From assembly GCF_019656315.1 (NCBI RefSeq), contig NZ_BPLU01000038.1:186001-250000 (forward strand): DNA of 64,000 nt. Direction: 5' to 3'. The notes beneath the pieces were generated by a model, which worked only from the letters and a program-made list of their open reading frames with translations, searched no databases and was not told where the DNA came from. Origin of the DNA: Flavobacterium sp. UMI-01 (GTDB taxonomy: Bacteria; Bacteroidota; Bacteroidia; Flavobacteriales; Flavobacteriaceae). The translations under genes and the position numbers were made by a program. Shown here one piece after another: positions 40,595 through 64,000 of the stretch. Position 1 is the stretch's first letter. The number at the start of each line of letters is the position of its first letter.

Positions 40595-40638
40595 AAAAAG
40601 CTCCAGTAACAGTAAAACCCTGTACTGGAGTGCTTTTT
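40595..40638 (-). terminator. Terminator after the aldehyde dehydrogenase
   Basis: Stem AAAAAGCTCCAGTA / TACTGGAGTGCTTTTT with a one-base bulge pair and a 14-base loop, ending in a T run on the minus strand; 45 bp after the stop. It separates the dehydrogenase operon from the cycloisomerase unit. Confidence 0.8.
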
Positions 40639-40683
40639 ACAAAACGATTTCTTTGAAAAAAATCAATAGCAAATGGTATTAAC

Positions 40684-42138: not shown

Positions 42139-42165
42139 CTTTACTTTTATTAAATTTTAAACAAT

Positions 42166-42936: not shown

Positions 42937-42961
42937 CTTTTTTTGTTTAATTGTTATTTAT

Positions 42962-43978
42962 TTATGCTTGGCAATCCATTAATACTTTTAATCCTTCTGG
43001 ATTTTTGTCGATATTTTCAAATACTTGTTGGATATTCGTCAACGGCTGTACATCTGTTATCATTTGTTCGAATGGCAACTCATTAGCCGTAATCAATTCG
43101 ATTGCTTTTTCGTAGTCTTCTTTTTCATAAACACGAGCACCGATTAAGCTTAATTCTTTCCAGAAAAATTTAAATAAATCTACTGGTTTTTTCTCTCCGT
43201 GAATGGCAACCATCAAGATTCTTCCTCTAATTCCAGCTACTTCACACATAATGTCTAAGGCAGGTTGCACCCCAGCTACTTCAAAAACTACATCCGCTCT
43301 ACGGTTATCTGTTTTTGATTTTACATATTCCACTAAGTCCACATCGATTGGGCTTACCGCATCAAAACCAAGTTCTTTAGCTTTAGCAATACGATTAGGA
43401 TTAACCTCTGAAATAATTACTTGTGCGCCTACTTCTTTTGCAGCCATCGCTACTAACAAACCAATAGGACCTCCTCCTAAAACGACTGCTGTTTCTCCTT
43501 TTACCAATCCACTTCTACGTACATCATGTGTAGCTACAGATAAAGGTTCGATTAATGCTGCTAATTTTAAGTCGGTAGTTTCTTTTAATTTATGTAAGGT
43601 AAAAGCAGGTACATTCCAATACTGTTGCATAGCACCAGGACTATCAATTCCAATAAACTTTAATTCTTCGCAAATATGATTGAATCCTTTATCAGAAGCT
43701 TTTGCCTTGCGATCATCCAATGGACGAACTACCACTTTGTCACCAATTGCGTATCCACTAACCCCTTCGCCAACAGCATCAATAACCCCTGACATTTCGT
43801 GACCAATTGTTTCAGGAATGTTTACTCGTTTATCCATCATTCCGTGATAGATGTGTACATCAGTTCCACAAACTCCCACATAGGCCACTTTAATTCTAAC
43901 TTCACCAGCAGCAGGTTGCGCTACTTCTTTTTCAATAACTGTAAAGGTTTTATTCCCTTCGTAAATGGTTGCTTTCAT
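42962..43978 (-). CDS. Zinc-type medium-chain dehydrogenase (putative 2-keto-3-deoxy-L-galactonate 5-dehydrogenase)
   Basis: 338 residues, MDR family: GVCGTDVHIYHG (catalytic Zn Cys37), GHE (His60-Glu61), LGGGPIGLLVAMAAK Rossmann motif near 168-182. The loop that normally carries four structural-zinc cysteines has only one Cys, so the structural zinc is probably absent. In agar degraders, an MDR enzyme (EC 1.1.1.389) oxidises 2-keto-3-deoxy-L-galactonate at C5, after which a KduD-type enzyme makes KDG; both genes sit together here. L-threonine or sorbitol-type dehydrogenases are similar in sequence, so assignment depends on context. First gene of the operon, with the operator-like repeat just before it. 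Confidence 0.87.
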   Translation of the reverse strand: MKATIYEGNKTFTVIEKEVAQPAAGEVRIKVAYVGVCGTDVHIYHGMMDKRVNIPETIGHEMSGVIDAVGEGVSGYAIGDKVVVRPLDDRKAKASDKGFNHICEELKFIGIDSPGAMQQYWNVPAFTLHKLKETTDLKLAALIEPLSVATHDVRRSGLVKGETAVVLGGGPIGLLVAMAAKEVGAQVIISEVNPNRIAKAKELGFDAVSPIDVDLVEYVKSKTDNRRADVVFEVAGVQPALDIMCEVAGIRGRILMVAIHGEKKPVDLFKFFWKELSLIGARVYEKEDYEKAIELITANELPFEQMITDVQPLTNIQQVFENIDKNPEGLKVLMDCQA

Positions 43979-43986
43979 TATATATT

Positions 43987-44030
43987 TATTTGTTTCAAAT
44001 GATAAACTTGTTTCTTATTTGAAACAAATA
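43987..44030 (-). promoter_or_regulatory. Candidate IclR-type operator and promoter of the anhydrogalactose operon
   Basis: Perfect inverted repeat ATTTGTTTCAAAT (43988-44000) and ATTTGAAACAAAT (44017-44029), one flanking pair more on each side; each arm is itself a palindrome (ATTTG-N3-CAAAT). It lies 10-52 bp before the dehydrogenase start. On the minus strand TATATTTG (44025-44032) fits the Bacteroidota -7 consensus TAnnTTTG and overlaps the repeat, which would let a bound repressor block the promoter. The TGTTTCA/TGAAACA halves resemble KdgR/IclR-type sites. Confidence 0.65.
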
Positions 44031-44115
44031 TAATAATAACATTTTATATATAATTAATTAAGAGCCAATTTTTTTTCATTAGAAAAACTAGTTTCATATA
44101 TAAAATAAGGAATAA

Positions 44116-44147
44116 AAAAAGTGTTTTGAATTTTCAAAACACTTTTT
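44116..44147 (-). terminator. Terminator after the IclR-family gene
   Basis: Stem AAAAAGTGTTTTG / CAAAACACTTTTT with loop AATTTT and a T run on the minus strand, 32 bp after the stop. It isolates the regulator from the dehydrogenase operon. Confidence 0.85.
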
Positions 44148-44178
44148 GTAAGATGTATCACACATTAAAGCAAATGAT

Positions 44179-44970
44179 TTATCGTGCGATATAGCCTAAT
44201 TTTAGAGATATTTCAAGTGCATATCGAAGGATAATTTTTCCTTTAGCTTCAAATTCTTCATGTGGCAACCTACCATGAGGAGCCGTAATCCACAAACAAG
44301 CAACAGGATAACCGTATTCATTAAAAATAGGAGCTCCTATACAATGAATACCTTGTATATCTTCACCATTATCAATAGCATAGCCTTTTTGTTTTACCTG
44401 AAGTAATTCTTCTTTAAAAGCCTTTTTTGAAGTGATAGTATTGTTTGTTAGTTTAGTAAAACTAATACCATCTATTATAGGTTTTGCATCTTCCTCAGGC
44501 ATAAAAGCAAGAATGGATTTCCCTCCTACTGAACTATGTAGATGAAAGCGAGTTCCTTGTTCCACAAAAAGTTTAACAGGAAAAGAAGAAGAAACTTGTT
44601 CTAAAATAGTTCCTGTTTCCCCTAATACCACACCAAGCATCACAGATTCTTTCAACTCATCTCTAAGAGCGCGCATGATATCTATTGACAATTCTACAAT
44701 GCTCTGCTCATTCATCGAAGAAATTCCCAAGGTGAGCATTTTTCGCGAAAGCGTTATTTTTTTAGTGGTTTCGTTTTTTTGCAAATAATTTTTAAATATC
44801 AAAGTATTTGTAATACGAAAAGCACTCGACTTGGTAACATCTAAAGTTTGTATAATTTCAGTCAAAGTGAGTCCTTTAGGATGTGTAGCAAGCAACTCAA
44901 TAATTTGCAATCCTCGCTCAAGGTTGGGAACATTATAATTCGATTTTAGGTCTTCTTTTTCTGGAATCAT
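44179..44970 (-). CDS. IclR-family transcriptional regulator (probable regulator of anhydrogalactose/KDG genes)
   Basis: 263 residues: winged helix (about 14-75, NLERGLQIIELLATHPKGLT, SSAFRITNTLIFKNYL) and the IclR effector domain (about 90-260, GTRFHLHSSVGGKSILAF near 141-158, GEDIQGIHCIGAPIFNEYGY, then PVACLWITAP). KdgR, a family member, senses KDG, the end product of the adjacent pathway, so this protein may sense KDG or an earlier sugar acid. It is transcribed alone, away from a repeat-filled spacer, with the palindrome ATGAAATTTCAT 43 bp before its start, and ends at its own terminator. The operator at 43987-44030 lies within 200 bp of its 3' end. Confidence 0.92.
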   Translation of the reverse strand: MIPEKEDLKSNYNVPNLERGLQIIELLATHPKGLTLTEIIQTLDVTKSSAFRITNTLIFKNYLQKNETTKKITLSRKMLTLGISSMNEQSIVELSIDIMRALRDELKESVMLGVVLGETGTILEQVSSSFPVKLFVEQGTRFHLHSSVGGKSILAFMPEEDAKPIIDGISFTKLTNNTITSKKAFKEELLQVKQKGYAIDNGEDIQGIHCIGAPIFNEYGYPVACLWITAPHGRLPHEEFEAKGKIILRYALEISLKLGYIAR

Positions 44971-45012
44971 ATAACTCGTAATATTAATTTTGAGACAAAA
45001 GTACTGTTATTT

Positions 45013-45024
45013 ATGAAATTTCAT
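45013..45024 (-). promoter_or_regulatory. Palindrome before iclR
   Basis: Perfect 12-bp palindrome ATGAAATTTCAT, 43 bp before the IclR start, inside TTATGAAATTTCATGA. IclR regulators often repress themselves at similar TGAAA/TTTCA sites; role inferred. Confidence 0.35.
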
Positions 45025-45093
45025 GAGATAAATTACAGCGTAAATAATCTAAAGGATAAAGATTATTATAGCAGTTAAATAATTGATTAGGTG

Positions 45094-45281
45094 CTAACCC
45101 GTTGGGTGAAATTAATCAGATTCATTTAAAAATGGTAATTCTAATTTAAATCTAAAATTATTTATAACAAACATGTCAGTCTGAGCCCGTCGAAGACTTC
45201 ATATATGATACATTTCGACAAGCTCAATGTGACAATAGGTATAAAATTAACCCATTAAATTAATTTTACCCAACGGGTTAG
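45094..45281. repeat. Nested inverted repeats (REP-like)
   Basis: Outer arms CTAACCCGTTGGGTGAAATTAAT type: 45094-45116 and 45259-45281, 22 of 23 bases complementary. Inside lies a second imperfect inverted repeat, TGTCAGTCTGAGCCCGTCGA (from 45174) facing TTCGACAAGCTCAATGTGAC (to 45233), of the kind scattered in Flavobacteriaceae genomes. The inner unit may have inserted into the outer one. Confidence 0.7.
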
Positions 45282-45299
45282 ATACTATTTAAACCTAAA

Positions 45300-45410
45300 T
45301 TACGCGTTGGAACACGGATAATACAGATGAAACGGATTTGCACAGTTTTTTTTAATAGTTTTTACAACATAAAATCTGCGAAAATCTACCTATAATCAGC
45401 GTGAAAAAAA
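45300..45410. repeat. Interspersed-repeat-like A/T-rich stretch
   Basis: Sequence of the form ACGCGTTGGAACACGGATAA ... AAATCTGCGAAAATCTACC ... ATCAGCGTGAAAA resembles non-coding repeats common between genes in Flavobacterium relatives. Identification rests on memory of the pattern, not on a second copy in this window. Confidence 0.4.
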
Positions 45411-45450
45411 TAATAAAATCCTAATGCGGATTTTGGGCTAAAACAAAAAA

Positions 45451-45486
45451 TCCCCTCTTTTAATTTCGAAGAAAGAAAAGAGGGGA
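45451..45486 (-). terminator. Rho-independent terminator after GH117
   Basis: Perfect 11-bp stem TCCCCTCTTTT / AAAAGAGGGGA with a 14-base loop, followed on the minus strand by T6; 21 bp after the GH117 stop. Confidence 0.9.
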
Positions 45487-45506
45487 CTTAAAGAAAAGAA
45501 ATCCTA

Positions 45507-46748
45507 TTATTTGTGCATGCTTTCCGCTTTTTCAGTTTTGCCGTTAACTGATTTTTCACCAGCAGCCACATGAGTTGTTTTTCTCTCAGATGAAAAACGC
45601 ATAATGCTTTGATAATTCCAGTTGTTGTATTTATGAGTCAATCCCCAACGCAAAGTTTCTGTTGGTTCTTTTTCATTATCTGCTGTTCTATCTAAACCAA
45701 TAGCATGAGGAGCATCTTTAATAGAAGCTTTAATCTCGAAATTGATTCCATCAGGAGACCATTGTAAGGTGTTTTTTTCTGGTCCATCTGTAGTAATTAA
45801 AGAGGCAATTCCTCCATTATACGGCCAAACACAAATTTCATGTCCACTGTTACTGATAGGATTATAAGGTGATTTCACATAAGGTCCTAATGGATTATCA
45901 GCAATGGCAACACCATGACGGATTTGACGACCTCCAAAAGTCATTTCTTCACCCATTTGCTCTCCTTTGTAATACAAATAGAACTTTCCTTTATAAGGTA
46001 AGATACAAGGATCGTGTGTTTTATGACTATCAAAGTCACCTTTTTTCTCCACTAAGAAACGGTTGTCTTCTTTACCTTTCCAAACTCCATTTTCAGCAGG
46101 AGCTAAAATTGGTGCATCTAATTTAGTCCAAGGTCCGTCTGGCGAAGTTGACCAAGCCATTCCTACTTTTTCTTTTACACGCACATTATAAATTCCTTCC
46201 ACTGTTTGATAGCACAAATAATATTTGCCATCCCATTTCATGATTTCAACAGTAAAAACAGAACGGTCATCATAAGAACCTTTTTTCCCTCTAGCGATTG
46301 CTACACCTTCTTCTTTCCATGTCCATCCATCTTGAGAAGTAGCATACCAAATATCACATCTGTCCCAAGGAAATACTTTTTTATTTTCCATATCCCCTCC
46401 AAAACCTTGTGTAGGACCTGTGCTTTTTGAATACCAAACATAGTATTTACCATTTTCTTTGATGATTGCACTTGGATCTCTTCGTACTACACCTTCTTCA
46501 TAAGCTAAGTCCCCTTTCAGAGGTTTTAAATCACTAAACTCGATAAACCATTCGTTACCTAAGTCTTGATCCCATTGTAAAGCGCGTTTTGTTGCTGCAC
46601 TTAAATGATCTACATCCATAATACCATATTTATCTTTATACTTTATGGCTTTGGCTCTTAATTCTTTGTCTTCTTTGGATTGTGCTGTCATATTAAAAAA
46701 CATTCCAGTGGTTAATAAGCCTAAAAGGCTCTTTTTAATTAGATTCAT
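45507..46748 (-). CDS. ahgA: Glycoside hydrolase family 117: 1,3-alpha-3,6-anhydro-L-galactosidase (AhgA-like)
   Basis: 413 residues with signal peptide (MFFNMTAQ). Five-bladed propeller with N-terminal helical tail used in dimer swapping ([11 protein letters not shown]). Family residues present: Asp91 ([13 protein letters not shown]), Asp246 ([10 protein letters not shown]), His303-Glu304 ([10 protein letters not shown]); also [20 protein letters not shown] and DDRSVF. GH117 removes 3,6-anhydro-L-galactose from the non-reducing end of neoagaro-oligosaccharides (EC 3.2.1.159). The full motif set matches the active agar-specific clade as I recall it. Last gene of the GH2-GH117 operon (15-bp gap). 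The C-terminal tail (about 395-413) is charged and disordered. Confidence 0.93.
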
Positions 46749-51828: not shown

Positions 51829-54800
51829 ATGAAAAAAAAGAATGGATTTTGGAAAAAAACGTTTCCAATAATGTTTTTATTTCTAAGTTTTTTTGTGACA
51901 AATGCGCAGAAAAAAGTATCAGGTCAAATTAAAGATGATGTTGGCCTTCCATTACCAGGTGTTTCAGTATTAATTTCGGGAACTCAAACAGGAACTGTAT
52001 CTGATATAGATGGAAAATATACAATTTCAGCAAAGGAAAGTGATGTATTATTATTTTCATTTATTGGTTTCAAAAGTCAAAAAAAGACCGTTGGAAATTC
52101 AAAACAAATCAATATAACATTAATCACAGATACTAAATTACTGGATGAAGTAATTGTTAATGTTGGTTACGGAAAACAAAAAGTAAAAGAAGTAACGGGT
52201 GCAGTTGTTCAAGTAAAGTCAGATATTATTGATCGTGCTCCTGTTTCTGATATCAGTGAGTCAATCCAAGGACGTGTAGCTGGTGTAAATGTTCAAGCAG
52301 CCAGTGGACGTCCTGGAGAAGCTGCAAATGTGCAAATACGAGGAGTAGGTTCATTGCTAGGTAAATTAGAGCCATTATATGTGGTTGATGGAGTTCCTTA
52401 TGAATCTAATCCCAATATAGCTCCAGATCAAGTAGAAACCATGGATATCTTAAAAGATGGAGCAGCAGCTGCTATTTACGGAGTTAGAGCTTCTAATGGT
52501 GTAATATTAATAACTACTAAAAGAGGAAAACAAGGTAATATAGCGGTAGATTTATCAACTTATACAGGTATTCAAAATATTACTTCTGGTACACCATTGA
52601 TGAATACACAGCAACAATTATTTGCTGATTTTTCGATTGAACCTGTACTTAATTCTGGGAATTTACCTGGATATTTTATTATTACTCCTGAATTATTAGA
52701 TTATAATAGTAATTATGTAAAAGATGTTCAAAATAACAATGCCATCATTAAAAATTACAATTTAGGTATCTCAGGTGGAACTAAAGATCTATCTCTTAAT
52801 TTCAATACGAGTTATTTTAATCAAGATGGTGTGTTATTGAATTCTGATTTTGATCGATTGAGTTCAAGATTAACAGCCCAATTTACCAAAGGTAAATTCA
52901 AGGCTTTTGCGACTATTGGTTTAACGGATGAAAATCGTTCACAAGAGCCTTGGGGATTATATGAATATAGTATTGGTCAAAAACCATGGCAAATTCCATT
53001 AGGTGATTTGAATATTAGTGGTGCCAATGAGGTAAACATACCCGTTGATAACACAATTTACTTTGGTTATTTAGCAAAGCAGCTTCAAAATATCGATGAT
53101 AGAAAAAGTTCCACATCAAACATTGCTTTAAATTTAGAATATGAAATTCTAAAAGGTTTAACTTATAAAATCAGTTTGAGTAAAAACAAATACGATTATA
53201 AGCGTAAGTTTTTTAGCCCTACTTATTTAATCTATGGTTTGGACGGAACGCTTAATGCAACTGCTTCAACTTTACAAGCGCAATTGCAAGAAGATTATAA
53301 TTTCTCAGAAAGAAATGTTATTGAAAATATGTTGAATTACAATTTAAAAATTGCAAAACATAAATTTACCACCACAGTAGTCTCTTCTTATGAAGAATTT
53401 TATGCTAAACAATTTTCAATTGGAGCAATTGGTTTCCCTACTAATGACACACAAGAAATAGGTCAAGGACAAGAAGCAAAAGCCCCCTCTAGCTTTGTTA
53501 ATGAGTACACTTTGGCAGGATTGTTAGGAAGATTTCAATACAATTATGACGAACGTTATTTGTTCTCGGCCAGTATTCGTAGAGACGGATCTTCAAAATT
53601 TGTAAATAATCGCTATGCTAATTTCCCTTCAGTTTCTGCCGGATGGAATATTACTGAAGAAAAATTCTTTAAAAATTCAAGCTTAAACAATGCTGTTAAA
53701 AGTTTAAAATTAAGAGCTAGTTATGCACAGATTGGAAATCAAGATATCCCTCCTTATTCTGCTTCAACCCAATTAGAAACAGGTGTAAATTATTTATTTG
53801 GACCTAATGAAGTAATTACTTCTGGATTGATTCAAAGACGCTACGCTAATCCTGACTTGAAATGGGAAACAAGTATTTCTAAAAACATAGGTATCGATTT
53901 AGCCATGTTTAATAATAAGTTTACACTGAACGCTGATGTGTATAGCAATGATAAACAAGACATGCTTTTGCCATACCAAACACCTCCATCAGCTGGTACT
54001 ACTCAGCCTAATGCAGAGACTACCTATAATCCTATTTATGTGAATGCTGGAAAAATGACCAATAAAGGTATTGAAATAGCTACCGCCTATAGAAATCAAT
54101 TTAAAAACGGTTTGAAATACGATATTTCAGCAACTTTCACAAAAAATGTTAATGAAATAGTAGATTTAAACGGTATTCAAAGAGGATATCCTAATGGCCG
54201 TCCTACTTTGTCTTTGGGTAATGCAATTGATCAAACAACCTTTTTTGCAGTAGGACACGAGGCTGGTTCTTTCTTTTTACTTAACAATTTAGGCGTAATC
54301 AAAACTGATGAACAATTAGCGGCCTACAAAGCGCTTGTACCAAATGTGAATGCACAAAAAGGAGATATCATGTATGAGGATGTAGATAAAAATGGAAAAA
54401 TAGACGAAAATGACCGTGTATATTCAGGCTCAGGACAACCAGACTTTGAGGCTGGATTAAATATCGACTTAAAATATAAGAATTGGGATTTATCAGTACA
54501 ATCGTATTTGTCTTATGGAGCAGAGTTATTTAATGGCGCACGCTTCTTTGCTTATGCGCAAGGAAGACATCTAGACCAATTTAGTCAATGGTCACCACAA
54601 AATCCAACTTCAGATATTCCTAGTTTTAGAAAAAGTTCATTAAGCGAAAGTGTAAGAGCTAGATCTGATTATTGGTTAGAAGATGGAACTTACTTCAGAT
54701 TGCGTAATATCACTCTTGGATATTCTTTACCAAAAGAAATTCTTGATAAATACGGCATAGGAAAACTAAGACTATATGTGACAGGTTTTAATCCATTTAC

Positions 54801-54924
54801 ATTTACTAAATATACAGGTTATGATCCCGAAGTTGGAGGGAATGGAATCAGTACTAGAGGGGTAGATAGTGGAAACTATCCAGTAGCAAGACGATTCGTT
54901 CTAGGTGCCCAAGTTAAATTTTAA
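51829..54924 (+). CDS. susC: SusC-type TonB-dependent transporter (region 5)
   Basis: 1031 residues: signal peptide (FLFLSFFVTNAQ), carboxypeptidase-regulatory-like domain (GQIKDDVGLPLPGVSVLISG, LFSFIGFKSQKK), TonB plug (GRVAGVNVQ, RGVGSL, PLYVVDGVPYES, METMDILKDGAAAAIYGVRA) and barrel ending in VLGAQVKF. No STN domain, which fits control by the upstream TPR/LuxR regulator. It should import agar- or porphyran-type oligosaccharides given the neighbouring GH16 and GH117, which is inference. The first of a three-gene unit with SusD and the SGBP. Confidence 0.95.
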   Translation: MKKKNGFWKKTFPIMFLFLSFFVTNAQKKVSGQIKDDVGLPLPGVSVLISGTQTGTVSDIDGKYTISAKESDVLLFSFIGFKSQKKTVGNSKQINITLITDTKLLDEVIVNVGYGKQKVKEVTGAVVQVKSDIIDRAPVSDISESIQGRVAGVNVQAASGRPGEAANVQIRGVGSLLGKLEPLYVVDGVPYESNPNIAPDQVETMDILKDGAAAAIYGVRASNGVILITTKRGKQGNIAVDLSTYTGIQNITSGTPLMNTQQQLFADFSIEPVLNSGNLPGYFIITPELLDYNSNYVKDVQNNNAIIKNYNLGISGGTKDLSLNFNTSYFNQDGVLLNSDFDRLSSRLTAQFTKGKFKAFATIGLTDENRSQEPWGLYEYSIGQKPWQIPLGDLNISGANEVNIPVDNTIYFGYLAKQLQNIDDRKSSTSNIALNLEYEILKGLTYKISLSKNKYDYKRKFFSPTYLIYGLDGTLNATASTLQAQLQEDYNFSERNVIENMLNYNLKIAKHKFTTTVVSSYEEFYAKQFSIGAIGFPTNDTQEIGQGQEAKAPSSFVNEYTLAGLLGRFQYNYDERYLFSASIRRDGSSKFVNNRYANFPSVSAGWNITEEKFFKNSSLNNAVKSLKLRASYAQIGNQDIPPYSASTQLETGVNYLFGPNEVITSGLIQRRYANPDLKWETSISKNIGIDLAMFNNKFTLNADVYSNDKQDMLLPYQTPPSAGTTQPNAETTYNPIYVNAGKMTNKGIEIATAYRNQFKNGLKYDISATFTKNVNEIVDLNGIQRGYPNGRPTLSLGNAIDQTTFFAVGHEAGSFFLLNNLGVIKTDEQLAAYKALVPNVNAQKGDIMYEDVDKNGKIDENDRVYSGSGQPDFEAGLNIDLKYKNWDLSVQSYLSYGAELFNGARFFAYAQGRHLDQFSQWSPQNPTSDIPSFRKSSLSESVRARSDYWLEDGTYFRLRNITLGYSLPKEILDKYGIGKLRLYVTGFNPFTFTKYTGYDPEVGGNGISTRGVDSGNYPVARRFVLGAQVKF

Positions 54925-54946
54925 TAACCAAAAAAGTAAAAAAAAA

Positions 54947-56677
54947 ATGAAACAATTCAATATAAAAACAAAAGCATTGTCCCTGACAATTATGGCATGC
55001 TCTTTACTTTCTCTATCTAGTTGTGATGAGAAAGATTTCCTATCAATTGATAATCCTAACTCAGTAACCGAATCAACCTTCTGGAAATCACCTTCCCAAT
55101 TTAATAGTGCTTTAACCACTGTTTATGCTGCCATGCAGTTTCAAGCCATAAGTGGTGTTGGTATTCACGAAGAAGAATTAAAAGCGGATATAGGTGACAC
55201 ATATACCTTTTTTTCCCCATTAGCATACAGACAATTAACCTATACTGACAATTCTCCTCAGGTAGTTAATAAATGGAATCAATTGTATATTGGAATCTTT
55301 AGAGCTAATCAAGTGATTAACCAAATTAATAAAGTAGATGCTTCCATTTTTGCTCCAAAAGAAAAGGAGTCAATTTTAGCACAAGCTCGTTTTTTAAGAG
55401 CCTTTTTTTACTTTAAATTAGTACATTCTTATGGAAAGGCAGTAATAAGAACAGAAGTTTCAACAACTGACTTAGATAAGCCTGCAAGTTCAATTCAAGA
55501 AGTAAACAATCAGATTATTATTCCTGACTTAATGTATGCAAAAGAAAACTTACCAACAACATGGACTGGACTTAATATAGGTCGAGTAACATGGGGTAGC
55601 GCAACCTCTTTACTTGGAAAAGTATATTTATATGATCAAAAATGGGGGCCTGCAGCTAAAGAATTCAAAGATGTAATTGATTCTAAAATTTATGCATTAA
55701 CTCCAAATATTTTAGACAATTTCACTGATCAAAAGGAATTTAACTCTGAATCCATTTTAGAAGTAGCTTATAGCTCAACTGCTAATCCTGGTGCTAATGG
55801 AGCAAATGTTGATGACACACCTTTCGCTTCAGGTGCTGAAGCTAGTGCAATTGCTCCACAGTATGCTTCTATTAGTTATGGAGGTTTTAATACAGTTGTC
55901 GCTAATTATTACTTACATGAATTATTCACTAATGATGAAATTGACCCCTCAAACCCAATCAATACAACTAATACACAATCGAGAAGATTAACAGCTTCTA
56001 TTTGCCCTAAGAATTTTGAAGGCACTTATTTTGGTGTTACAAATTCAGAAAATAAAGTACACGCTTATAGAGGTTTAGGATTGACTGCATTAGTAAAAAA
56101 AGGAACTAATTGGTATCAAGGAACTTCAGAAATCCCTTTGAATCGTAGTGGAATAAATTTCAGACACATCCGTTTAGCCGATGTCTATTTAATGTATGCT
56201 GAAGCTGTTTTAAATGCAACCGGTGATGTAAACGAAGCTATCAAATATATTGACTTGGTACGCTCTCGTGCTGGTGTCAAAACTTTAACTCAATATTTAG
56301 CAGAGAACAGTAATACCTTTCCACAATTACACATAAGTAAACAGGTAAATGGAGGTATTCAACCTAAAGTAGCCCCTACAAAAGAAAATGTATTGAAACA
56401 TATTCAAATGGTTGAAAGACCTTTAGAACTTTGTTTTGAAGGCTTTAGATGGAATGACTTGGTTCGATGGGGAATTGTAAAAAGTGTATTTACTAATTTA
56501 GGAAATGATTTGAATTGGAGAAAAAATAACTTCGCAACAATACTCAATAAAGCACCATTATATATTGAAGGCTCTGTTAATCTACTAGCTTTACTTGGTA
56601 TTCAAAACTATAACCCAGCAGTACATGATTATTTTCCAATACCTGCTGCCGAACTGCAAAGTAATAAAAACCTTTAA
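54947..56677 (+). CDS. susD: SusD/RagB-family glycan-binding lipoprotein (region 5)
   Basis: 576 residues from Met at 54947; an earlier in-frame ATG at 54905 would overlap susC and precede the signal peptide, so 54947 is preferred. Lipoprotein Cys26 (SLSSC). SusD blocks: QFNSALTTVYAAMQF, FLRAFFYFKLVHSYG, HIRLADVYLMYAEAVLNATG and MVERPLELCFEGFRWNDLVR. Somewhat longer than average because of loops in the middle (about 300-400), where glycan contacts usually are. 22 bp after susC. Confidence 0.94.
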   Translation: MKQFNIKTKALSLTIMACSLLSLSSCDEKDFLSIDNPNSVTESTFWKSPSQFNSALTTVYAAMQFQAISGVGIHEEELKADIGDTYTFFSPLAYRQLTYTDNSPQVVNKWNQLYIGIFRANQVINQINKVDASIFAPKEKESILAQARFLRAFFYFKLVHSYGKAVIRTEVSTTDLDKPASSIQEVNNQIIIPDLMYAKENLPTTWTGLNIGRVTWGSATSLLGKVYLYDQKWGPAAKEFKDVIDSKIYALTPNILDNFTDQKEFNSESILEVAYSSTANPGANGANVDDTPFASGAEASAIAPQYASISYGGFNTVVANYYLHELFTNDEIDPSNPINTTNTQSRRLTASICPKNFEGTYFGVTNSENKVHAYRGLGLTALVKKGTNWYQGTSEIPLNRSGINFRHIRLADVYLMYAEAVLNATGDVNEAIKYIDLVRSRAGVKTLTQYLAENSNTFPQLHISKQVNGGIQPKVAPTKENVLKHIQMVERPLELCFEGFRWNDLVRWGIVKSVFTNLGNDLNWRKNNFATILNKAPLYIEGSVNLLALLGIQNYNPAVHDYFPIPAAELQSNKNL

Positions 56678-56758: not shown

Positions 56759-58345
56759 ATGAAAACAAAATTTAAAAAAATTATAGCTCTTTGTATTGCT
56801 ACATTTGGATTACATTCCTGTAATGACATTTATGATGCGATCAATTTAGATGAAGCTAATAGTCGTATTATTGCAACTTCCCAAATGAATTTTGATAATA
56901 CAATTAGAGTGGGTACAAGTATAACTCTTGGTGACTTATCCTCAGGTGTCCAATCAAGATTATGGACCTTTCCTGAAGGTGTTGCAGATATTGTAGACTC
57001 TGATAATGATGTAACAACTACAACTGCTAATGTGAAAGCAATTTTTAATACCGTAGGAACTCATAACGTAAAGTTACATCAAGAGTTCAAAGAGGAAGCT
57101 TACGATTTCAAATACACTAATAAAATTGGAAAAGTTGTTGATACTACGTTGGTCATTACAGTTTTACCACAAATTAAAGTAACTGTTACTGCGAACTACT
57201 TAAATTCAGATGGAACATTAGGTGCACCTTTAAATATGGCTGATGGAGCTAAAAATCAAGTTATAGCAAGTAGAACCATCCGATATACTTTAACTACAGA
57301 AGGCGCTCCTGAAAAGTATCTTTGGACAATACCTGGTGGAACTCCTGAAACCTCTGTTGAAACCTCTAAGACTTTAGATGTAAAATATAAAAAACTTGGT
57401 ACGTATGGCTTTAGTATTAATGGCTCAACAGCAAGACCTGCTGGTTCTGGTACAACGGTATTTACTGAATTAATACAAGTTATTCCTTCAACTGATCCTG
57501 TTACTTTAGATGGTGCTCAGGTATCTAATAACACTATTCGATTAAATTTCAGTAGAGAAATGGACCAATCAAGTTTAAAGACTACTGATTTTACAGCAAG
57601 TGTTACTCATCCTACTAAATCTGTTCCTTCACATACCATTTCATCAGTTTCAGTTGATCCTACTGAAGGGAATATTGTTGTAATTAAATTCCTTTCAGGG
57701 CAAAACTTGTATAATGATGATGTTGTAAAAATATCATATACTAAAGGTTCGATGACCACGGCTGATGGTGTTGCTGCAAGTTCATTTGCAAACTTACCAG
57801 TAAGTTTTGCTGGTGAAAATTTACTTTCAAAATCGCCTTCAACTTATGATGCTGGTTTCGAAACATCAACTAATGCTAATTGGAAATATTTAGGATGGGG
57901 AGCACCTTGGGATAAATACACTTTAAATATTTCTGGTGCTAAAGCGCATTCAGGTAGTAAAAGTGCTTATATCGAAATACAACCTGCTGGCGGAATGATT
58001 ATGGGACATTTTAACAATTCAAATACTCTCGTAACTTTTAATTTAGTTGCTGGAAAAACATATGAAATGGGTTGTTGGACTTATGTTGAAAGTTTAGGTA
58101 GTAAAACTTCAACTCCAGATTTACGTTTTTATCTAAGTCCAAATACTGATTGGGGAATTGGCCCTAATCCTGGATTCTCACCGACCTTTACCGTAGGAAA
58201 ATGGGTTTATAGCTCTACTTTAGTAAAGATAAATGCAACGGCTAATTATAACTTTATGATTCGAGGTGATAATGCTGCTAATTCTCAAGCTTTAAAATTC
58301 TACCTAGATGATATTACTGTTACTGAAGCAGTATTAAGACCTTAG
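56759..58345 (+). CDS. Surface glycan-binding lipoprotein (PKD/Ig-like domains and a C-terminal CBM-like domain)
   Basis: 528 residues; lipoprotein Cys21 (GLHSC). Two PKD-like domains (about 45-150, SRLWTFPEGVADIV; about 165-250, YLWTIPGGTPETS), a SwmB/Big-like domain (about 255-350, NTIRLNFSREMD, DDVVKISYTKGSMTTADGVA), and a C-terminal beta-sandwich (about 355-525, AGFETSTNANWKYLGWG, YEMGCWTYVES, FYLDDITV) with the look of a CBM4/9/22-type carbohydrate-binding module. The gene order SusC-SusD-SGBP and this stalk-plus-binding-tip layout fit an outer-surface glycan binder. No enzyme motif is present. Confidence 0.85.
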   Translation: MKTKFKKIIALCIATFGLHSCNDIYDAINLDEANSRIIATSQMNFDNTIRVGTSITLGDLSSGVQSRLWTFPEGVADIVDSDNDVTTTTANVKAIFNTVGTHNVKLHQEFKEEAYDFKYTNKIGKVVDTTLVITVLPQIKVTVTANYLNSDGTLGAPLNMADGAKNQVIASRTIRYTLTTEGAPEKYLWTIPGGTPETSVETSKTLDVKYKKLGTYGFSINGSTARPAGSGTTVFTELIQVIPSTDPVTLDGAQVSNNTIRLNFSREMDQSSLKTTDFTASVTHPTKSVPSHTISSVSVDPTEGNIVVIKFLSGQNLYNDDVVKISYTKGSMTTADGVAASSFANLPVSFAGENLLSKSPSTYDAGFETSTNANWKYLGWGAPWDKYTLNISGAKAHSGSKSAYIEIQPAGGMIMGHFNNSNTLVTFNLVAGKTYEMGCWTYVESLGSKTSTPDLRFYLSPNTDWGIGPNPGFSPTFTVGKWVYSSTLVKINATANYNFMIRGDNAANSQALKFYLDDITVTEAVLRP

Positions 58346-58365
58346 TTTTTATTTTGGTTAGTTTG

Positions 58366-58407
58366 AAGAGCGGTTACTTTGAAATATAAGTCAACCGCTC
58401 TTTTTTT
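58366..58407 (+). terminator. Rho-independent terminator after the SGBP gene
   Basis: Stem AAGAGCGGTT / AACCGCTCTT with a 17-base loop and a following T run; about 20 bp after the stop. Confidence 0.85.
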
Positions 58408-58623
58408 ATGAAAATTATCGATTTTTATAATACCCCCCCAATTGTATTTTTATTCCGTAATCAATAAAAAAATAGCATAATGCATACTGTCACCCCTTTG
58501 AAAAATTATAATGAAAAGAAAATATTTCAATAAAAATCCCAAAAATCATATTTCTCGCCTGATACAAAAGCTTTTTTCCTCCTAAGAAAAGAACTCTATA
58601 CAACAATGAAAATAACCCCAAAT

Positions 58624-58667
58624 GGTTGCTCTTTATTCCTTTTGGACAAAAGAAACAAAGAGCAACC
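58624..58667 (-). terminator. Hairpin terminator after the second GH117
   Basis: Perfect 11-bp stem GGTTGCTCTTT / AAAGAGCAACC with a 22-base loop, 50 bp after the GH117 stop; the T run on the minus strand is short, so efficiency is uncertain. Confidence 0.55.
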
Positions 58668-58717
58668 TTAAATATTAATTAGGATAGAAATCCAGATAGC
58701 AATTGGTTATCTAAACA

Positions 58718-59974
58718 TTATTTGCCATTTAATACTTTTTGGTTTTCTTCAGCAATTCTAGCTTTTTGTTTTGGATTTAATCCTTGTTTAAAATTATCCT
58801 CTGGTTTGGTATAAATATGAGACCTTTTCATATCTGGATCATCTACATCCTGACTCAAATCGCAATCAAAACGAACTAAAATAGCATGATTAGTCGCCCA
58901 TCCGTTTACTGTAGTCAAATGGCTAATTCCCCAAGTAATTCCTCTACCATCTTTGGTATCGGTAAAGGCATCTGGAATAAAAGGCCCCGCTGCATCAGGC
59001 ATTAACTCGGTGATAGAAGCAATGTCAAAATTCACTCCGTCCTTAGCGTACTGAATGGTATTATGCTCGTTACCATCTCGAATAGTAAAAGCTGCGATTC
59101 CTTCTTTGAAAGGAAACATCGTTGTTTCATGTCCTGACGCCAAAACAGGATTCAACGGATTTTTAGTAAATGGTCCAAATGGATTGTCGGCAGTTGCCAA
59201 ACCTTGCATACGCACTAAATTTGGTTTTCCATCAAAATCCGATTTGTAATACAAGTATATTTTTCCTTTGTAAACCAATGGATAAGGGTCGTGAATCGAA
59301 TATTGATCCCAAGCATCTTTAGGGCCATTCGGAATTACAATTTGATTCGTAGCCGTCCAAGGACCGTCAGGTGAATCAGCATACGACATCAAAACAGGAC
59401 AATCATCTCCACGAGTTCCGCTGGCTTCACTAAAACCTTGGTAATACATATAATACTTCCCTTTCCATTTCAAAATATCAGCTGTAGCTACTGAACGGTG
59501 ACCCAAATTAGGCTTAGGAGGTCTTGGAATAGCCACTCCTTGCTCTTCCCAAGTAAAACCATCTTTACTGGTAGCGTACCAAATTTCAGCCAAATCCCAA
59601 TCGGCGGATGGAATCGTTTCCGTTGCTAATTTAGCTCCTTTAGGCGAAGTAGGTGTTTGACGGTGCGTGTACCACACATAATATTTGCCATTTTCAAAAA
59701 TTACTTTCGAAGGATCTCTACGCGTAATCGTTCCATCATGATTGCTGTAATCAAGCCCTTTCAATTCCGTATATTTAAATTGGGTATATAATTCGTTAGC
59801 CTCTGGTCTCGGAGCCATATAATTATCATAATTACGTTGCATGGCTTTGCTCAAAGGCATATTGGGCTTTTCATTGGGTAAAACAAATGGAAAACTTTCT
59901 TTGGTTGTTTTACACGAAGTCATTCCCAAACCTACAACGGCAAGCAGACATAAAATGGTTTTGTTGGTTTTCAT
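58718..59974 (-). CDS. Second GH117-family lipoprotein (divergent clade)
   Basis: 418 residues; lipoprotein Cys21 (GMTSC), so membrane-anchored unlike the soluble GH117 at 45507-46748. Keeps the family residues: Asp87 (TRRDPSKVI), Asp229 (SIHDPYPLVY) and His282-Glu283 (SGHETTMFPF), plus DLAEIWYATSKDGFTW and ADSPDGPWT. The N-terminal helical part (MPLSKAMQRNYDNYMAP) differs. Related GH117 clades in Zobellia showed no activity on neoagarobiose as I recall, so a different substituted or sulfated agar/carrageenan oligosaccharide may be the substrate. Last gene of the GH28-sulfatase-GH16-GH117 unit, 157 bp after GH16. Confidence 0.88.
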   Translation of the reverse strand: MKTNKTILCLLAVVGLGMTSCKTTKESFPFVLPNEKPNMPLSKAMQRNYDNYMAPRPEANELYTQFKYTELKGLDYSNHDGTITRRDPSKVIFENGKYYVWYTHRQTPTSPKGAKLATETIPSADWDLAEIWYATSKDGFTWEEQGVAIPRPPKPNLGHRSVATADILKWKGKYYMYYQGFSEASGTRGDDCPVLMSYADSPDGPWTATNQIVIPNGPKDAWDQYSIHDPYPLVYKGKIYLYYKSDFDGKPNLVRMQGLATADNPFGPFTKNPLNPVLASGHETTMFPFKEGIAAFTIRDGNEHNTIQYAKDGVNFDIASITELMPDAAGPFIPDAFTDTKDGRGITWGISHLTTVNGWATNHAILVRFDCDLSQDVDDPDMKRSHIYTKPEDNFKQGLNPKQKARIAEENQKVLNGK

Positions 59975-60131
59975 ATTAGTAGTATGTTTTAGTAATATTG
60001 ACGATAGTTTTCGTCAGTTGCATTTAGTTTAAAATTTAATTTAGATTTTTTTTAAAATTGAGGTTTCAAAAATTTTGTTTCTTTCCTTTAATGATTCCTT
60101 GATTCATCAAACCCTTTTGAATAACAACATT

Positions 60132-61016
60132 TTAATCATTCAATTTCCAGGTTCTTACCCAATTATAGGTTGTAGTTCTATCAGCAACAGAACCTGTCAT
60201 TCCACCATCGGCAGGAACTGGATTCCAATCATAGGTTTCAACTACCATTCTTAAATACATTTCGATATCAAAATCAGCAGGTGGTTTCACTTTGGTTACA
60301 AATTTACCGTCTAAAAAGAATAAAATTTCGTCTTTAGATTTCCACCAAACGCCATACACATGAAAAGCATCATATACTTTCCCCCCAATATCGCCTCCAC
60401 CTTTGTTAGAACCTTTGGCATAATCACAGCCCTCAGGTATGTTGCGACTGTGGGTATTGGAATTCATTTTTTGATCAAAATTTTTCATCCACTCGGCTTT
60501 GTTTACAATTTGCCCCACACATTCCTGAATATCCAATTCAGTTGTTCTTTTATCACAACCTTGCGCCCCTTTGCCTTCATTAATCAACCAAAATGTTGAA
60601 GACATAAAGGTTTTATTGGCTTTCATTTCACATTCATAATAGCCATATTTCATTGCATTTCTAGAACCTACATAACCACCACCGTGTGTATAGGTTTTAT
60701 TTTGTTTTACCACTGGTTGCGGTAGCAAGGTCGTTGTGATTTTCAAACTTCCATCAGATACTGTTATATTTTCGGCCATGAACAATCCAGGAGCTCGACC
60801 TATCCAACCTTGCCCTGAAATTTGCCATTTATCTTCATCAACTTTATTCCCGTTAAATTCATCCGACATGTTTTTTACCAATTCCCATTTTTTGCCATCT
60901 GGTTTCGGATCTTGCCCTTTTTCAAAAACGGGACTTTTTTGTGCCACGATACTATTTGCGGCTAATACTAAAATAAAAGGTGCAATTTGTTTTAATGTTT
61001 TGATAACTTTTTTCAT
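60132..61016 (-). CDS. Glycoside hydrolase family 16, agarase/porphyranase type
   Basis: 294 residues with signal peptide (LAANSIVAQ). Beta-jelly roll: SDEFNGNKVDEDKWQI, IGRAPGLFMAENITVSDG, YYECEMKANKTFMSSTFWL, active site Glu160-x-Asp162-x-x-Glu165 (TTELDIQECVG), HVYGVWWKSKDEILFFLDGK. ExDxxE is the beta-bulge active site used by agarases, porphyranases and carrageenases. The ELDIQECVG block and genomic setting with GH117 point to agar or a substituted agar; exact subfamily is not determined. No binding module. It is the intact counterpart of the GH16 pseudogene at 28515-29521. 26 bp after the sulfatase stop. Confidence 0.92.
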   Translation of the reverse strand: MKKVIKTLKQIAPFILVLAANSIVAQKSPVFEKGQDPKPDGKKWELVKNMSDEFNGNKVDEDKWQISGQGWIGRAPGLFMAENITVSDGSLKITTTLLPQPVVKQNKTYTHGGGYVGSRNAMKYGYYECEMKANKTFMSSTFWLINEGKGAQGCDKRTTELDIQECVGQIVNKAEWMKNFDQKMNSNTHSRNIPEGCDYAKGSNKGGGDIGGKVYDAFHVYGVWWKSKDEILFFLDGKFVTKVKPPADFDIEMYLRMVVETYDWNPVPADGGMTGSVADRTTTYNWVRTWKLND

Positions 61017-61042
61017 TTTTATTGGTGTAATTAATTCTAATC

Positions 61043-62887
61043 TTATTTGGTTGCTAAATATTCTAATCTTCTACCTACTGTATAATTTTCACGCACTTTT
61101 TTGTCTATTTTTTCCAACTCAAGTTGGAATGGATATTTTTGATAGAAATCTTTTAATAGCACTATGCTATTCAAAATCAACAAGGCTTCCGTTTCTTTTT
61201 TGGATTGATAAAGTGCTTCCAGAATAGGTTGGCTAGTGTTTTGATGTGCGACAATTGCCAAAAATTCAGCGGCTCTAACTCTGTTAATGATTTCAGTATC
61301 CGATTTCATTAGAGTTGTAATTTGTGATGTCAACGATTTTGCTTGTTCTCCAAAAGAAGTCGCTACAATTAATCCCCAGTAACGCTCCCATTTGTCTTTT
61401 GATTGCAAACATTTTACAATCTTAGGGGCTGCTTTGTCAAAATTTAACACCTCTAAATCAGCAATTTTAAGGTACTTCTTGATGTCTTTTTGATGTTTTT
61501 TTCCAAACTCCAACGGATTCTGAATGGCATTATCCAACAAATAAAATTCAGGATACAAGGACAAATCAGGTTGTTTTTCCATCCAAGAATGCAACTTTTT
61601 GCGCAAACTCACTAACTGTGACTGATAAGCAGGATCGTTTGCCAAATTTTTAGTTTCAAATGGGTCTTTGTCTAAATCATATAAGGCTTCGGCTGCTTTG
61701 GGCTCAAAAAACTGCGATTGCACTGCATTTAATTTTCCAGCCTTGAATAACTCAAACCATTCCTTATACGCCAATTGTTTGTAACGGTACTCATTCATTA
61801 ACCCATCTACATTGAAAGGTTCAAAATTGCGCACGTACTTCAGGTTTCCTTTGCGAAGACTTCTTACCATATCGTACTTTTCGTCAAAACGATCTGCATA
61901 ACCAATGGTTTCATCTCTCTTTTCAAGTTCATTTTTAGAAATATTTTTTCCTAAAAAAGGTTTTCCATCCATTGTTTTAGGGACACTAACACCTGCAAGT
62001 TTCAAAACAGTCGCTCCAAAATCCACAAAACTCACAAAAGAATTGGTTCGTGAACCCGGTTGAAAGGCTGCTAAATCCTGGTATTTCTTTGGCACATAAA
62101 CAACCAGTGGAATATGTAATCCCGTTTCGGTTAAATAGCCTTTACTATCAGGCAATACGCCACCATGATCTCCATAGTAGAAAATAATAGTATTCTCTAA
62201 TAAATTATCTTTTTTCAATTGGTCTAAAACCGCGCCTACTTCAGAGTCCATTGCCTTTATTTTATCGCGGTAATAGGTGTTTGTATATCTAAACAAATCG
62301 GTTTGAGGGTGATTCGGTTGTACAAAAACCTCAGCAGGATTCATTGACGTTTTGGTTGTATTCATCGTTTCCTTAGTAAAATGAATACGGCTTTCGTGAG
62401 TGGTTTCGATATTAAAAACATAAAAGAAAGGTTGCCCTGGCTTTCTGTTTTTATAGGATGCTTTTTTAGACGATTCGTCCCAAACCTCATTGGATTTATA
62501 AATATTATAATCTTCCTTAGCATTATTGGCTGTATAATAACCCGCTTTTCTCAAATAAGCGGGAAACATTTCTTGCGTATTATTCAAGGTTACTTTGCCT
62601 TCCGCACGGTGGTAATGCGTTGCTAATTTGGGTCCATACGTTGACGTAATCAAAGTAGAACGAGCAGCACTACATACCGCAGCATTCGAAAAAGCACGGT
62701 CAAAAACAATTCCGTCCTTAGCTAAATTCTCAATGTTGGGCGTGGCAATACCGTGTTCATCAAACAATTTCATATAATGTTTCGAATTGTCCTCAGAAAC
62801 AATCCAAACAATATTGGGTTGTTGGGCATATGAGGCAACCGTTGTGATTAGATTGACTAAAAATAGTTTTACTAGTTTATTATTCAT
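61043..62887 (-). CDS. S1-family sulfatase with C-terminal helical-repeat extension
   Basis: 614 residues with signal peptide (TTVASYAQ). Formylglycine site Cys72-Ser-Ala-Ala-Arg76 (AAVCSAARSTLITS); N-terminal metal motif is SEDNS rather than LTDDQ, as in one S1 group; YYGDHGG near 235 for the second metal region. Residues about 470-610 look like HEAT-type helical repeats (VKCLQSKDKWERYWGLIVAT, RAAEFLAIVAHQ), an addition that may aid partner or substrate contact. It removes sulfate esters from the algal glycan. The gene starts 3 bp after GH28 ends and lies 26 bp before GH16, so it is operonic. Confidence 0.93.
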   Translation of the reverse strand: MNNKLVKLFLVNLITTVASYAQQPNIVWIVSEDNSKHYMKLFDEHGIATPNIENLAKDGIVFDRAFSNAAVCSAARSTLITSTYGPKLATHYHRAEGKVTLNNTQEMFPAYLRKAGYYTANNAKEDYNIYKSNEVWDESSKKASYKNRKPGQPFFYVFNIETTHESRIHFTKETMNTTKTSMNPAEVFVQPNHPQTDLFRYTNTYYRDKIKAMDSEVGAVLDQLKKDNLLENTIIFYYGDHGGVLPDSKGYLTETGLHIPLVVYVPKKYQDLAAFQPGSRTNSFVSFVDFGATVLKLAGVSVPKTMDGKPFLGKNISKNELEKRDETIGYADRFDEKYDMVRSLRKGNLKYVRNFEPFNVDGLMNEYRYKQLAYKEWFELFKAGKLNAVQSQFFEPKAAEALYDLDKDPFETKNLANDPAYQSQLVSLRKKLHSWMEKQPDLSLYPEFYLLDNAIQNPLEFGKKHQKDIKKYLKIADLEVLNFDKAAPKIVKCLQSKDKWERYWGLIVATSFGEQAKSLTSQITTLMKSDTEIINRVRAAEFLAIVAHQNTSQPILEALYQSKKETEALLILNSIVLLKDFYQKYPFQLELEKIDKKVRENYTVGRRLEYLATK

Positions 62888-62890
62888 TTC

Positions 62891-64000
62891 TCAATTATTA
62901 TGTTTTACTTTTTTTCTGTTTACAAAAATGTTTTGTGTTGAACCATTCAACACATCATCAAAAACTATCGGTTTACGTTCGTCCTTGTTCACAATATTGA
63001 TATGGAAATTATCAATTGATAAACCATCAACATGGCGGGCAAAAATTCCAGATGCTGGTAAAGTGCCTACTTTACTAAATTCTGGCCACCAATCGCCCAA
63101 GGTTTCAAGGGTAAATTCTTTTATATTTTTATTTAATGCATCTGCTTTTGTTCCGCCACCTGAAACAGTCATTTGGATGTTTTTCAACTGAATATCGGTA
63201 ATATAATGATTCGGCATTCCTGTGATAAAAATGACCGAATTTTTGTCCAACGCTCTATTGTCAACTATTATATTTTCGAAAATAAAACCATGCATGGCTT
63301 TCATAGGTGCCATTTCTTTGGGTGCATCTACCCCTGCTCTTTGCTGGCAAAAAGTCATGAAAATAGGGCGTGGTACGTTTTTCATTACAATATTCGAAAA
63401 AATCATATTTTTCATTTCGCCTCCTTCGTTCATTTGGATTTTTAAACCTGAATCTGATATATCATGAAAGGTACAATTATTCACGGTAACCGACTCAAAA
63501 TCGCCTCTGGAAGCCAAACCAAAACGCATGGCTGCCCATTTACTCGTAAACACACAATTGGTTATTACAATATCTTTACAAGGTTTATCAGGTCTGGAAG
63601 TTTGCAAACAAATGGAATCGTCGCTGGTATCAAAAGACGAATTAGAGACTCTCACATTGGTACACCCATCAAAATCCAGTCCATCTCCATTGTGATTGAC
63701 TCTGCTGATAATTTTAATTCCATCTACTACAATTTCGTTGCAATACAACCAAGCCGATGTCCAAGCTGCAGGGTTTATTAGCGTAACATCTCTTAAATGA
63801 ATATCATTGCAATTTAAAAACCGAAGCATCATCGGGCGACCGCCTTTTTCTTTGGTAAAATTCTTCGGATGACCATTGGCATCAATAGTGCCTTTTCCTT
63901 CAATTGAAAAAGATTTGGCCTCATTCGCAAAAATCAAGCAACGATCCATATGAGGTTCGTTCTTATAGGTGTTTTTATGCGTATCCGTTGCATAATCCGA
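62891..64000 (-). CDS. Glycoside hydrolase family 28 (polygalacturonase-like), 5' end outside the window
   Basis: Partial: the frame stays open to base 64000 (SDYATDTHKNTYKNEPH precedes the first in-window Met at 63949), so the N-terminus with any signal peptide lies beyond. Right-handed beta-helix signatures: FSIEGKGTIDANG, NHNGDGLDFDGC (NTD-equivalent NGD), DTSDDSICLQ (catalytic DD) and the repeated NxxF coil pattern. The usual GxGH is replaced by GLASRGDFESV and RxK is SDSGLKIQ. GH28 enzymes hydrolyse galacturonic, or in some clades xylo- or rhamnogalacturonan-type, linkages by inversion. With GH16, GH117 and a sulfatase it may attack a side group of agar/porphyran or an associated pectin-like glycan. 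Confidence 0.85.
   Translation of the reverse strand, partial: SDYATDTHKNTYKNEPHMDRCLIFANEAKSFSIEGKGTIDANGHPKNFTKEKGGRPMMLRFLNCNDIHLRDVTLINPAAWTSAWLYCNEIVVDGIKIISRVNHNGDGLDFDGCTNVRVSNSSFDTSDDSICLQTSRPDKPCKDIVITNCVFTSKWAAMRFGLASRGDFESVTVNNCTFHDISDSGLKIQMNEGGEMKNMIFSNIVMKNVPRPIFMTFCQQRAGVDAPKEMAPMKAMHGFIFENIIVDNRALDKNSVIFITGMPNHYITDIQLKNIQMTVSGGGTKADALNKNIKEFTLETLGDWWPEFSKVGTLPASGIFARHVDGLSIDNFHINIVNKDERKPIVFDDVLNGSTQNIFVNRKKVKHNN

Follow-up and report, generated by a model that had tools for sequence, protein, structure and literature searches.

A GH28 sub-group without the polygalacturonase motifs in a putative sulfated-galactan operon of Flavobacterium sp. UMI-01

Gene run around the GH28 gene

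The region analyzed here (the window) is a stretch of 64,000 nucleotides of Flavobacterium sp. UMI-01, which corresponds to positions 186001-250000 of contig NZ_BPLU01000038.1 (C37) in a genome of 4.02 Mb and 76 contigs. At its right-hand end (58718-64000) we confirmed four minus-strand genes, which encode a GH28 protein, a sulfatase (sulfatase B), a GH16 protein and a GH117-type protein. The GH28 gene, whose orthologous group is designated GH28A and is the subject of this report, is truncated by the window edge and extends 270 bases beyond it. The upstream part, whose retrieval the first-pass annotation of the window had proposed, was obtained, and the complete gene (C37:248891-250270; 892-2271 of locus L004, where L numbers denote the loci compared) encodes a protein of 459 amino acids (aa) with a signal-peptide-like N-terminus. 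The first-pass annotation correctly placed GH28 in a run with GH16, GH117 and a sulfatase, but it missed two genes that continue the run on the same strand beyond the window: a second S1 sulfatase (sulfatase A, 550 aa), located 9 base pairs (bp) before GH28, and a GH29 gene (520 aa), located 27 bp before sulfatase A. The 556 bp upstream of GH29 contain no open reading frame (ORF) of 120 aa or more.

The gene order is GH29, sulfatase A, GH28, sulfatase B, GH16 and GH117, with successive gaps of 27, 9, 3, 26 and 157 bp (Table 1); the 3-bp gap was read directly between the GH28 stop codon and the sulfatase B start. Because of the 157-bp gap before it, GH117 is the loosest member of the run. The first-pass annotation took the 3-bp and 26-bp gaps as signs of true co-transcription; the gaps themselves stand, and such spacing suggests that the genes are transcribed together. 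A promoter and terminator scan gave 22 and 5 predictions in L004 1-6500 (24.1 and 5.3 expected), near the shuffled background, and 28 and 6 in window 58200-64000 (20.7, standard deviation (SD) 4.2, and 4.0, SD 2.3, expected), where promoters were slightly above it. Predicted promoters and terminators were dropped as operon evidence because their counts are near this background. A SusC/SusD-like pair lies 2 kb from the operon end, and its combination with carbohydrate-active enzymes and sulfatases identifies the region as a polysaccharide utilization locus.

The best solved relative of the GH117-type protein is 4u6d (E 8.5e-217), which we take to be a Zobellia GH117, and it also matches the 3,6-anhydro-alpha-L-galactosidase 3p2n (E 1.1e-60). 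The GH16 protein has a close full-length match to porphyranase B (PorB; 3juu, E 2.7e-151), with a wide gap to other GH16s (next, 4awd, E 5.1e-40), and its sequence classifies it as porphyranase-B type. The nearest solved relative of sulfatase A (6hr5, E 1.9e-62) points to no sure substrate. Sulfatase B, which carries a formylglycine motif and scores 128.7 bits against PF00884, matches the S1_8C structure 9bba over residues 19-598 (E 1.7e-172). S1_8C strips the 2-sulfate from a beta-linked galactose at the chain terminus and thereby opens the way for GH2, and some S1_8 members instead act on xylose-2-sulfate or N-sulfoglucosamine (PMC12549532; this source and PMC5698469, PMC7939477 and PMC12316285 are cited from excerpts). 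By analogy with S1_8C, sulfatase B most likely acts on the 2-sulfate of beta-linked galactose. For GH29, structures of the exo-alpha-L-galactosidase BpGH29 (7snk, E 2.2e-86; 7ljj, E 3.1e-86) rank before the fucosidase 4ni3 (E 1.2e-70), and in the porphyran cycle the action of BpGH29 is preceded by that of a sulfatase (PMC12316285). The profile matches of these five proteins are GH29, sulfatase (two), GH16 and GH43-like (the GH117); none is a pectin family, which argues against the pectin-like linkage that the first-pass annotation had considered.

Table 1. Positions of the operon genes and associated features in the window
Feature	Position	Strand	Basis or remark
GH28A gene, 3' part (369 of 459 codons)	62891-64000	-	PF00295; 5' part at C37:250001-250270 (L004:2002-2271)
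S1 sulfatase B, S1_8-like, 614 aa	61043-62887	-	S1_8C match, PF00884, C-S-A-A-R
GH16 of porphyranase-B type, 294 aa	60132-61016	-	3juu match, E-L-D-I-Q-E motif
GH117-type enzyme, 418 aa, lipobox-like N-terminus	58718-59974	-	4u6d match
GH16-GH117 gap, 157 bp	59975-60131	-	Site of GH28B (a second GH28 group) in three of five related loci
SusC/SusD-like pair, converging with the operon	51829-56677	+	PF00593/PF07715 and PF07980/PF14322 over cut-offs

Fold and active-site residues of GH28A

The protein belongs to family GH28 by profile (PF00295, 68.2 bits against a cut-off of 22.9) and by the right-handed beta-helix fold of its AlphaFold model, which was built from an alignment of 36 sequences (pLDDT 92.9). 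The closest folds are galacturonidases and polygalacturonases; the exo-galacturonidases 5olp, 3jur and 2uve lead the Foldseek matches (E 4.4e-19, 7.6e-17 and 1.5e-16), and VIA aligns 5olp with a Z of 38.3 and an rmsd of 2.5 over 365 residues. The Asp triad that is catalytic in GH28 (D196, D217 and D218, in N-x-D and D-D) is kept in all 73 GH28A sequences.

Polygalacturonases bind their substrate through the histidine of a GHG motif and an R-x-K motif, and GH28A has neither. In 73/73 sequences, W245 takes the place of the histidine and G-L/F-K-I-Q stands where polygalacturonases have R-x-K; the full set of invariant residues is N194, D196, D199, D217, D218, W245, R249, G275, K277, Q279, E282 and R301. 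The motif changes noted in the first-pass annotation are therefore real, and to judge from the sequences they fit a specificity other than homogalacturonan. In the alignment, R249 and K277 would leave room for an anionic group, either sulfate or carboxylate. In contrast to GH28A, the three exo-galacturonidases named above all have His opposite W245 in phmmer alignments. Opposite K277 and Q279, 2uve has R and K, whereas the 3jur alignment is shifted by two, so that K277 faces the last residue of R-L-K. The 2uve register at 277-279 is backed by multiple alignments, and GH28A lacks R-x-K in either register.

Among other GH28 proteins, those of L001, L080 and L097 have H, R and K at positions 245, 277 and 279; the L001 protein, encoded in the same genome as the window, retains HGHG and R-F-K. 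The third GH28 of this genome (L003) has L, R and Y (R-x-Y) and neither motif in full. Three GH28s of the rhamnogalacturonidase BT4146 type, defined as scoring above the cut-off of NCBIfam model NF049898, have T, A and E at these positions, K at 249, and no His or R-x-K. GH28B, which occurs beside GH28A (L005 14172-15524, L040 11382-12770 and 36 others) and for which no activity was found, has W245, K249, K277 and L279 in 38 of 40 sequences; the remaining two, both fragmentary and from L031, show gaps or other residues. The polygalacturonase signature has thus been lost in several GH28 branches, and only the exact set W/R/K/Q marks GH28A. The idea that the motif change is a peculiarity of this gene was rejected on account of the BT4146-type proteins, and for the same reason the altered motifs alone are insufficient as a sign of the novel linkage that the first-pass annotation had considered.

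NF049898 is also the nearest NCBIfam model of GH28A, which at 220.5 bits falls well below the equivalog cut-off of 500. In the tree, in which the three BT4146-type sequences are the only characterised GH28 type included, they form a joint clade with GH28A (support 0.999). The tree rows for L081, L083, L084 and L085 are the neighbouring GH28A, as near-duplicates, with the GH28B of those stretches left out, and the L082 row is a second GH28A-type copy (56%).

Family GH110, which contains the inverting alpha-1,3-galactosidase of lambda-carrageenan, has its fold and catalytic machinery in common with GH28 (PMC7939477), and galactose specificity therefore appears reachable on the GH28 scaffold. By published description, GH28 and GH110 are alike in beta-helix, inverting mechanism and Asp machinery, and GH110 teams with S1_8 sulfatases and GH2 (PMC7939477, PMC12549532); however, GH110 is a separate family. 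No GH110 was named among the Pfam or PDB sequence matches at E 0.001, in searches not aimed at GH110, and its absence from the 50 VIA matches listed carries no weight.

Recurrence of GH28A and its gene neighbours

One species-genome scan, seeded with six query peptide patterns and missing more distant members, yielded 72 loci with a GH28A protein 52-81% identical to the query. They are mostly from Bacteroidota, most of which we presume to be marine, with two from Kiritimatiellales, two from Planctomycetaceae (one genome) and one from Pelagicoccus. ORFs of at least 150 aa were called mechanically and neighbours were classed by BLASTP (E <= 1e-8) against 26 proteins of the window and L004; genes unlike these 26 stay blank, and some loci end at contig ends. 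Two Persicobacter plasmid records also carry GH28A at E <= 1e-60 (CP012861.1 136879-138186, 62.6% identity; NZ_AP025300.1 23290-24597, 56.8%).

A sulfatase lies within five genes of GH28A in 64 of the 72 loci, and sulfatases account for 157 of 659 neighbour genes. Around 20 other GH28 genes of the same bacterial family, by comparison, a sulfatase was found in one locus (1/190 genes; Fisher p 1.7e-12, although the loci are not independent). When the two other GH28 loci of the window's genome are added, the control becomes 2/22 (a sulfatase five genes away in L122, none in L123). The 20 controls were picked by hand, with three from genome G061 and two each from G049, G100, G117 and G011; L119 is cut by a contig end. 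They are 22-32% like GH28A, and the motif check covered two of them, L108 and L118, whose GH28 genes are those of L080 and L097.

Within the same distance, another GH28 and GH2 each occur in 39/72 loci, GH29 in 21 and SusC in eight. Clustering of the neighbours within six genes gave one sulfatase family present in 46 loci and one GH2 family present in 32, with GH28B in 38 and sulfatase A in 25. A PorB orthologue (>=60%) was near GH28A in five loci and sulfatase B in seven. The core company of GH28A is therefore sulfatases, GH28B and GH2, and the PorB-GH117 arrangement of the window is one version of it. The sulfatase family of the 46 loci (L018 13143-14702 and 46 other ORFs) stands most often two genes downstream of GH28A, and the solved protein nearest to its L040 member is not a close one (E 3.3e-39).

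The order GH28A, sulfatase B, GH16 and GH117 recurs in L007, and also in L005, L006 and L009, where GH28B is inserted before GH117; L065 has GH28A, GH16 and GH117 without sulfatase B and, like L007, without GH28B. The gene order thus recurs in other Flavobacteriaceae, and the random order elsewhere that the first-pass annotation had named as a counter-indication was not seen. A GH28B remnant in the 157-bp gap of the window was unsupported (tblastn with 40 GH28B-class sequences, best E 0.054).

At the genome level, we surveyed 199 genomes of the family from 198 genera, including that of the window, with cut-offs of E 1e-120 for GH28A, 1e-40 for GH117, 1e-20 for PorB-like GH16 and 1e-60 for kappa-carrageenase-like proteins; the counts take no account of kinship or genome size. 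GH28A was present in 10 genomes, GH117 in 20 and PorB-like GH16 in 15. All 10 GH28A genomes carry GH117 (Fisher p 8.7e-12) and PorB-like GH16; five further genomes have PorB-like GH16 without GH28A. A kappa-carrageenase-like match, in no case over the model's cut-off, was found in seven genomes, including four of the 10 with GH28A.

A comparable locus of Zobellia galactanivorans (ZGAL_3628-3640) contains two GH28s tabled as polygalacturonases (ZGAL_3631 and ZGAL_3632) beside S1_30 and S1_28 sulfatases, GH2, GH29, SusC/D and two putative GH16 porphyranases (PMC5698469). The GH28 genes were induced on kappa- and iota-carrageenan and not on 3,6-anhydro-D-galactose, and the SusD-like protein bound none of the tested ligands noticeably, carrageenans included; in view of the putative porphyranases ZGAL_3628 and ZGAL_3640, the authors considered another sulfated galactan (sulfated agars) the likelier target (PMC5698469). 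Z. galactanivorans itself is outside the loci compared, and the ZGAL numbers were matched by gene order. Five loci of other Zobellia (L030, L035, L037, L040 and L042) have GH2, GH28A, GH28B, two S1 sulfatases and then GH16, with extra ORFs between in L030 and L035; L037, L040 and L042 continue with a GH117, which in L037 is set apart by one additional ORF. For the GH16 of L040, the nearest relative is beta-porphyranase 4awd (E 2e-48). The window differs in its PorB-type GH16, which the Zobellia GH16s resemble by only 34-35%, in its S1_8-like sulfatase and in the lack of GH28B. Given this report of 2017, the pairing of GH28 with porphyranases has been seen before, and the first-pass view that such enzymes are not a standard part of agar systems is not supported by the GH28A genomes sampled, although only half of the GH117 genomes have GH28A. 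New here are the orthogroup, its signature residues and the way in which it compares with other GH28s. In the literature searched, which most subscription papers lie outside, no GH28A activity was found, and only PMC5698469 carries the tags ZGAL_3631, ZGAL_3632 or ZGAL_3628.

Possible role in sulfated galactan breakdown

On account of its sulfatase neighbourhood and its co-occurrence with GH117 and porphyranase-like genes, GH28A looks like a sulfated-galactan gene and not a stray pectin gene. We consider, with a probability of about 0.6, that it takes part in breaking down sulfated galactans of red algae, with the agaran or porphyran kind as the likeliest, and our best reading is that of a periplasmic, inverting and probably exo-acting alpha-glycosidase on sulfated agaran oligosaccharides. 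In the pathway that we propose, the GH16 porphyranase would cut the polymer into oligosaccharides, as suggested by its similarity to PorB, and SusC/D would bring these into the periplasm. There, the two sulfatases (A and B) may take sulfate off the chain ends, GH29 and GH117 may remove alpha-L-galactose and 3,6-anhydro-L-galactose, and GH28A, presumably an inverting enzyme with the Asp triad of its family, may remove one more alpha-linked residue, not accepted by GH29 or GH117. This residue would probably stand at a chain end and bear or flank a sulfate; L-galactose, D-galactose and a uronate are candidates, and the order of the steps is likewise putative. The Bacteroides plebeius porphyran exo-cycle (GH16, S1_11, GH29 and GH2C) resembles the window in its GH16 porphyranase, sulfatase and BpGH29-like GH29, but GH28 is mentioned nowhere in the main text of PMC12316285.

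Alpha-galactosidase activity is, to our knowledge, not known for GH28. As a tentative proposal, which we consider less likely than not, GH28A and GH28B may be alpha-galactosidases for sulfated agarans, on which they would attack terminal alpha-galactose of either the L or the D form that may be 6-sulfated. They would have evolved by swapping carboxylate-binding residues (W245/R249/K277/Q279 in GH28A) and could supply an exo-step so far missing, in marine Bacteroidota, for those parts of red-algal galactans that are non-anhydro.

Several observations weigh against the proposed role in agaran breakdown. Endo- and exo-enzymes tie in VIA Z, so that exo action is putative, and because GH29 and GH117 already cover the known alpha-L residues of porphyran, GH28A is left without an assigned gap to fill. 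Half of the GH117 genomes (10/20) lack GH28A, only 17 and 12 of the 72 loci have GH16 and GH117, respectively, within five genes, eight have no sulfatase there, and L068, L069 and L072 are from organisms that we guess to be of lake or soil. On carrageenans, the Zobellia GH28 pair rose by log2 7.8 in one column and 3.9 and 4.3 in the other (PMC5698469), a response at odds with an exclusive agaran role, barring shared regulation or mixed extracts.

The BT4146 group is the nearest characterised GH28 by both profile and tree, and a uronate-specific enzyme is possible for this reason; like the Zobellia response to carrageenans, this kinship speaks against a simple agaran galactosidase. Such a rhamnogalacturonidase-like GH28A would remove alpha-linked galacturonate or a related uronate, which would be minor in red-algal walls or belong to associated pectin-like material, and the basic residue at 249, present in both groups where the other GH28s examined have V, T, S or G, could hold the carboxylate. 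The low NF049898 score, the replacement of W245, K277 and Q279 by other residues in the BT4146-type sequences and the sulfatase-rich surroundings make this alternative unlikely. We regard as slightly less likely still an action on carrageenan-type chains, in which GH28A would take the non-anhydro alpha-D-galactose, whether 6-sulfated or desulfated, off units of the mu/nu type, as GH110 does for lambda-carrageenan. It would account for the Zobellia induction (PMC5698469) and for the frequent GH2 neighbours, and S1_8C, to which sulfatase B is closest among solved structures, belongs to the lambda-carrageenan cascade with GH110 and GH2 (PMC12549532). However, kappa-carrageenase-like matches accompany GH28A in 4/10 genomes and porphyranase-like GH16 in 10/10, and the failure of the Zobellia SusD-like protein to bind carrageenans argues weakly in the same direction, as it bound no other ligand either (PMC5698469). 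An ordinary polygalacturonase placed in the operon by chance, which the GH28 fold and Asp triad would allow, is highly improbable and was rejected on the absence of His and R-x-K in every GH28A sequence and on the contrast in sulfatase neighbours (64/72 against 1/20).

Other features were noted around the operon. A broken porphyranase-like GH16 copy, interrupted by two in-frame stops, lies at window 28535-29131 (minus strand); over residues 42-236 its identity with the PorB-type protein is 46%. Contig C37 has at least nine GH117-type matches (nine of 18 first-look candidates were scored), including window 45507-46748, window 58718-59974 and others in C37:294794-413376; with five of them inside C37:392233-413376, these matches make up a dense region for red-algal galactans. 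At window 37268-46748 (minus strand), genes for a RhaT-like transporter, an aldose epimerase, a mandelate-racemase-type enzyme, an aldehyde dehydrogenase, an SDR, an ADH and an IclR regulator precede the GH117-type gene, and we take this set to be a putative 3,6-anhydro-L-galactose catabolic cluster. A separate polysaccharide locus occupies window 11795-25622 (minus strand); besides GH2, PL8, GH78, GH3 and GH5 it has a sulfatase to which a GH78-like Ig domain is joined. Between two runs of carbohydrate-active enzymes, L004 7123-10704 encodes a 385-aa protein that has no NCBIfam match and is solute-binding-like by eye, together with an enoyl-CoA-hydratase-like protein and an aldehyde dehydrogenase, a set that is odd for a galactan locus.

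GH28 genes are readily annotated as polygalacturonases, as in the Zobellia table (PMC5698469), and for the GH28A sub-group this name is very likely wrong. GH28A seems to mark the use of sulfated galactans rather than pectin, and correcting its name would change the predicted substrates of marine genomes. If the alpha-galactosidase proposal is true, an activity would be added to GH28 and a step would be filled in the breakdown of sulfated agarans of seaweed.

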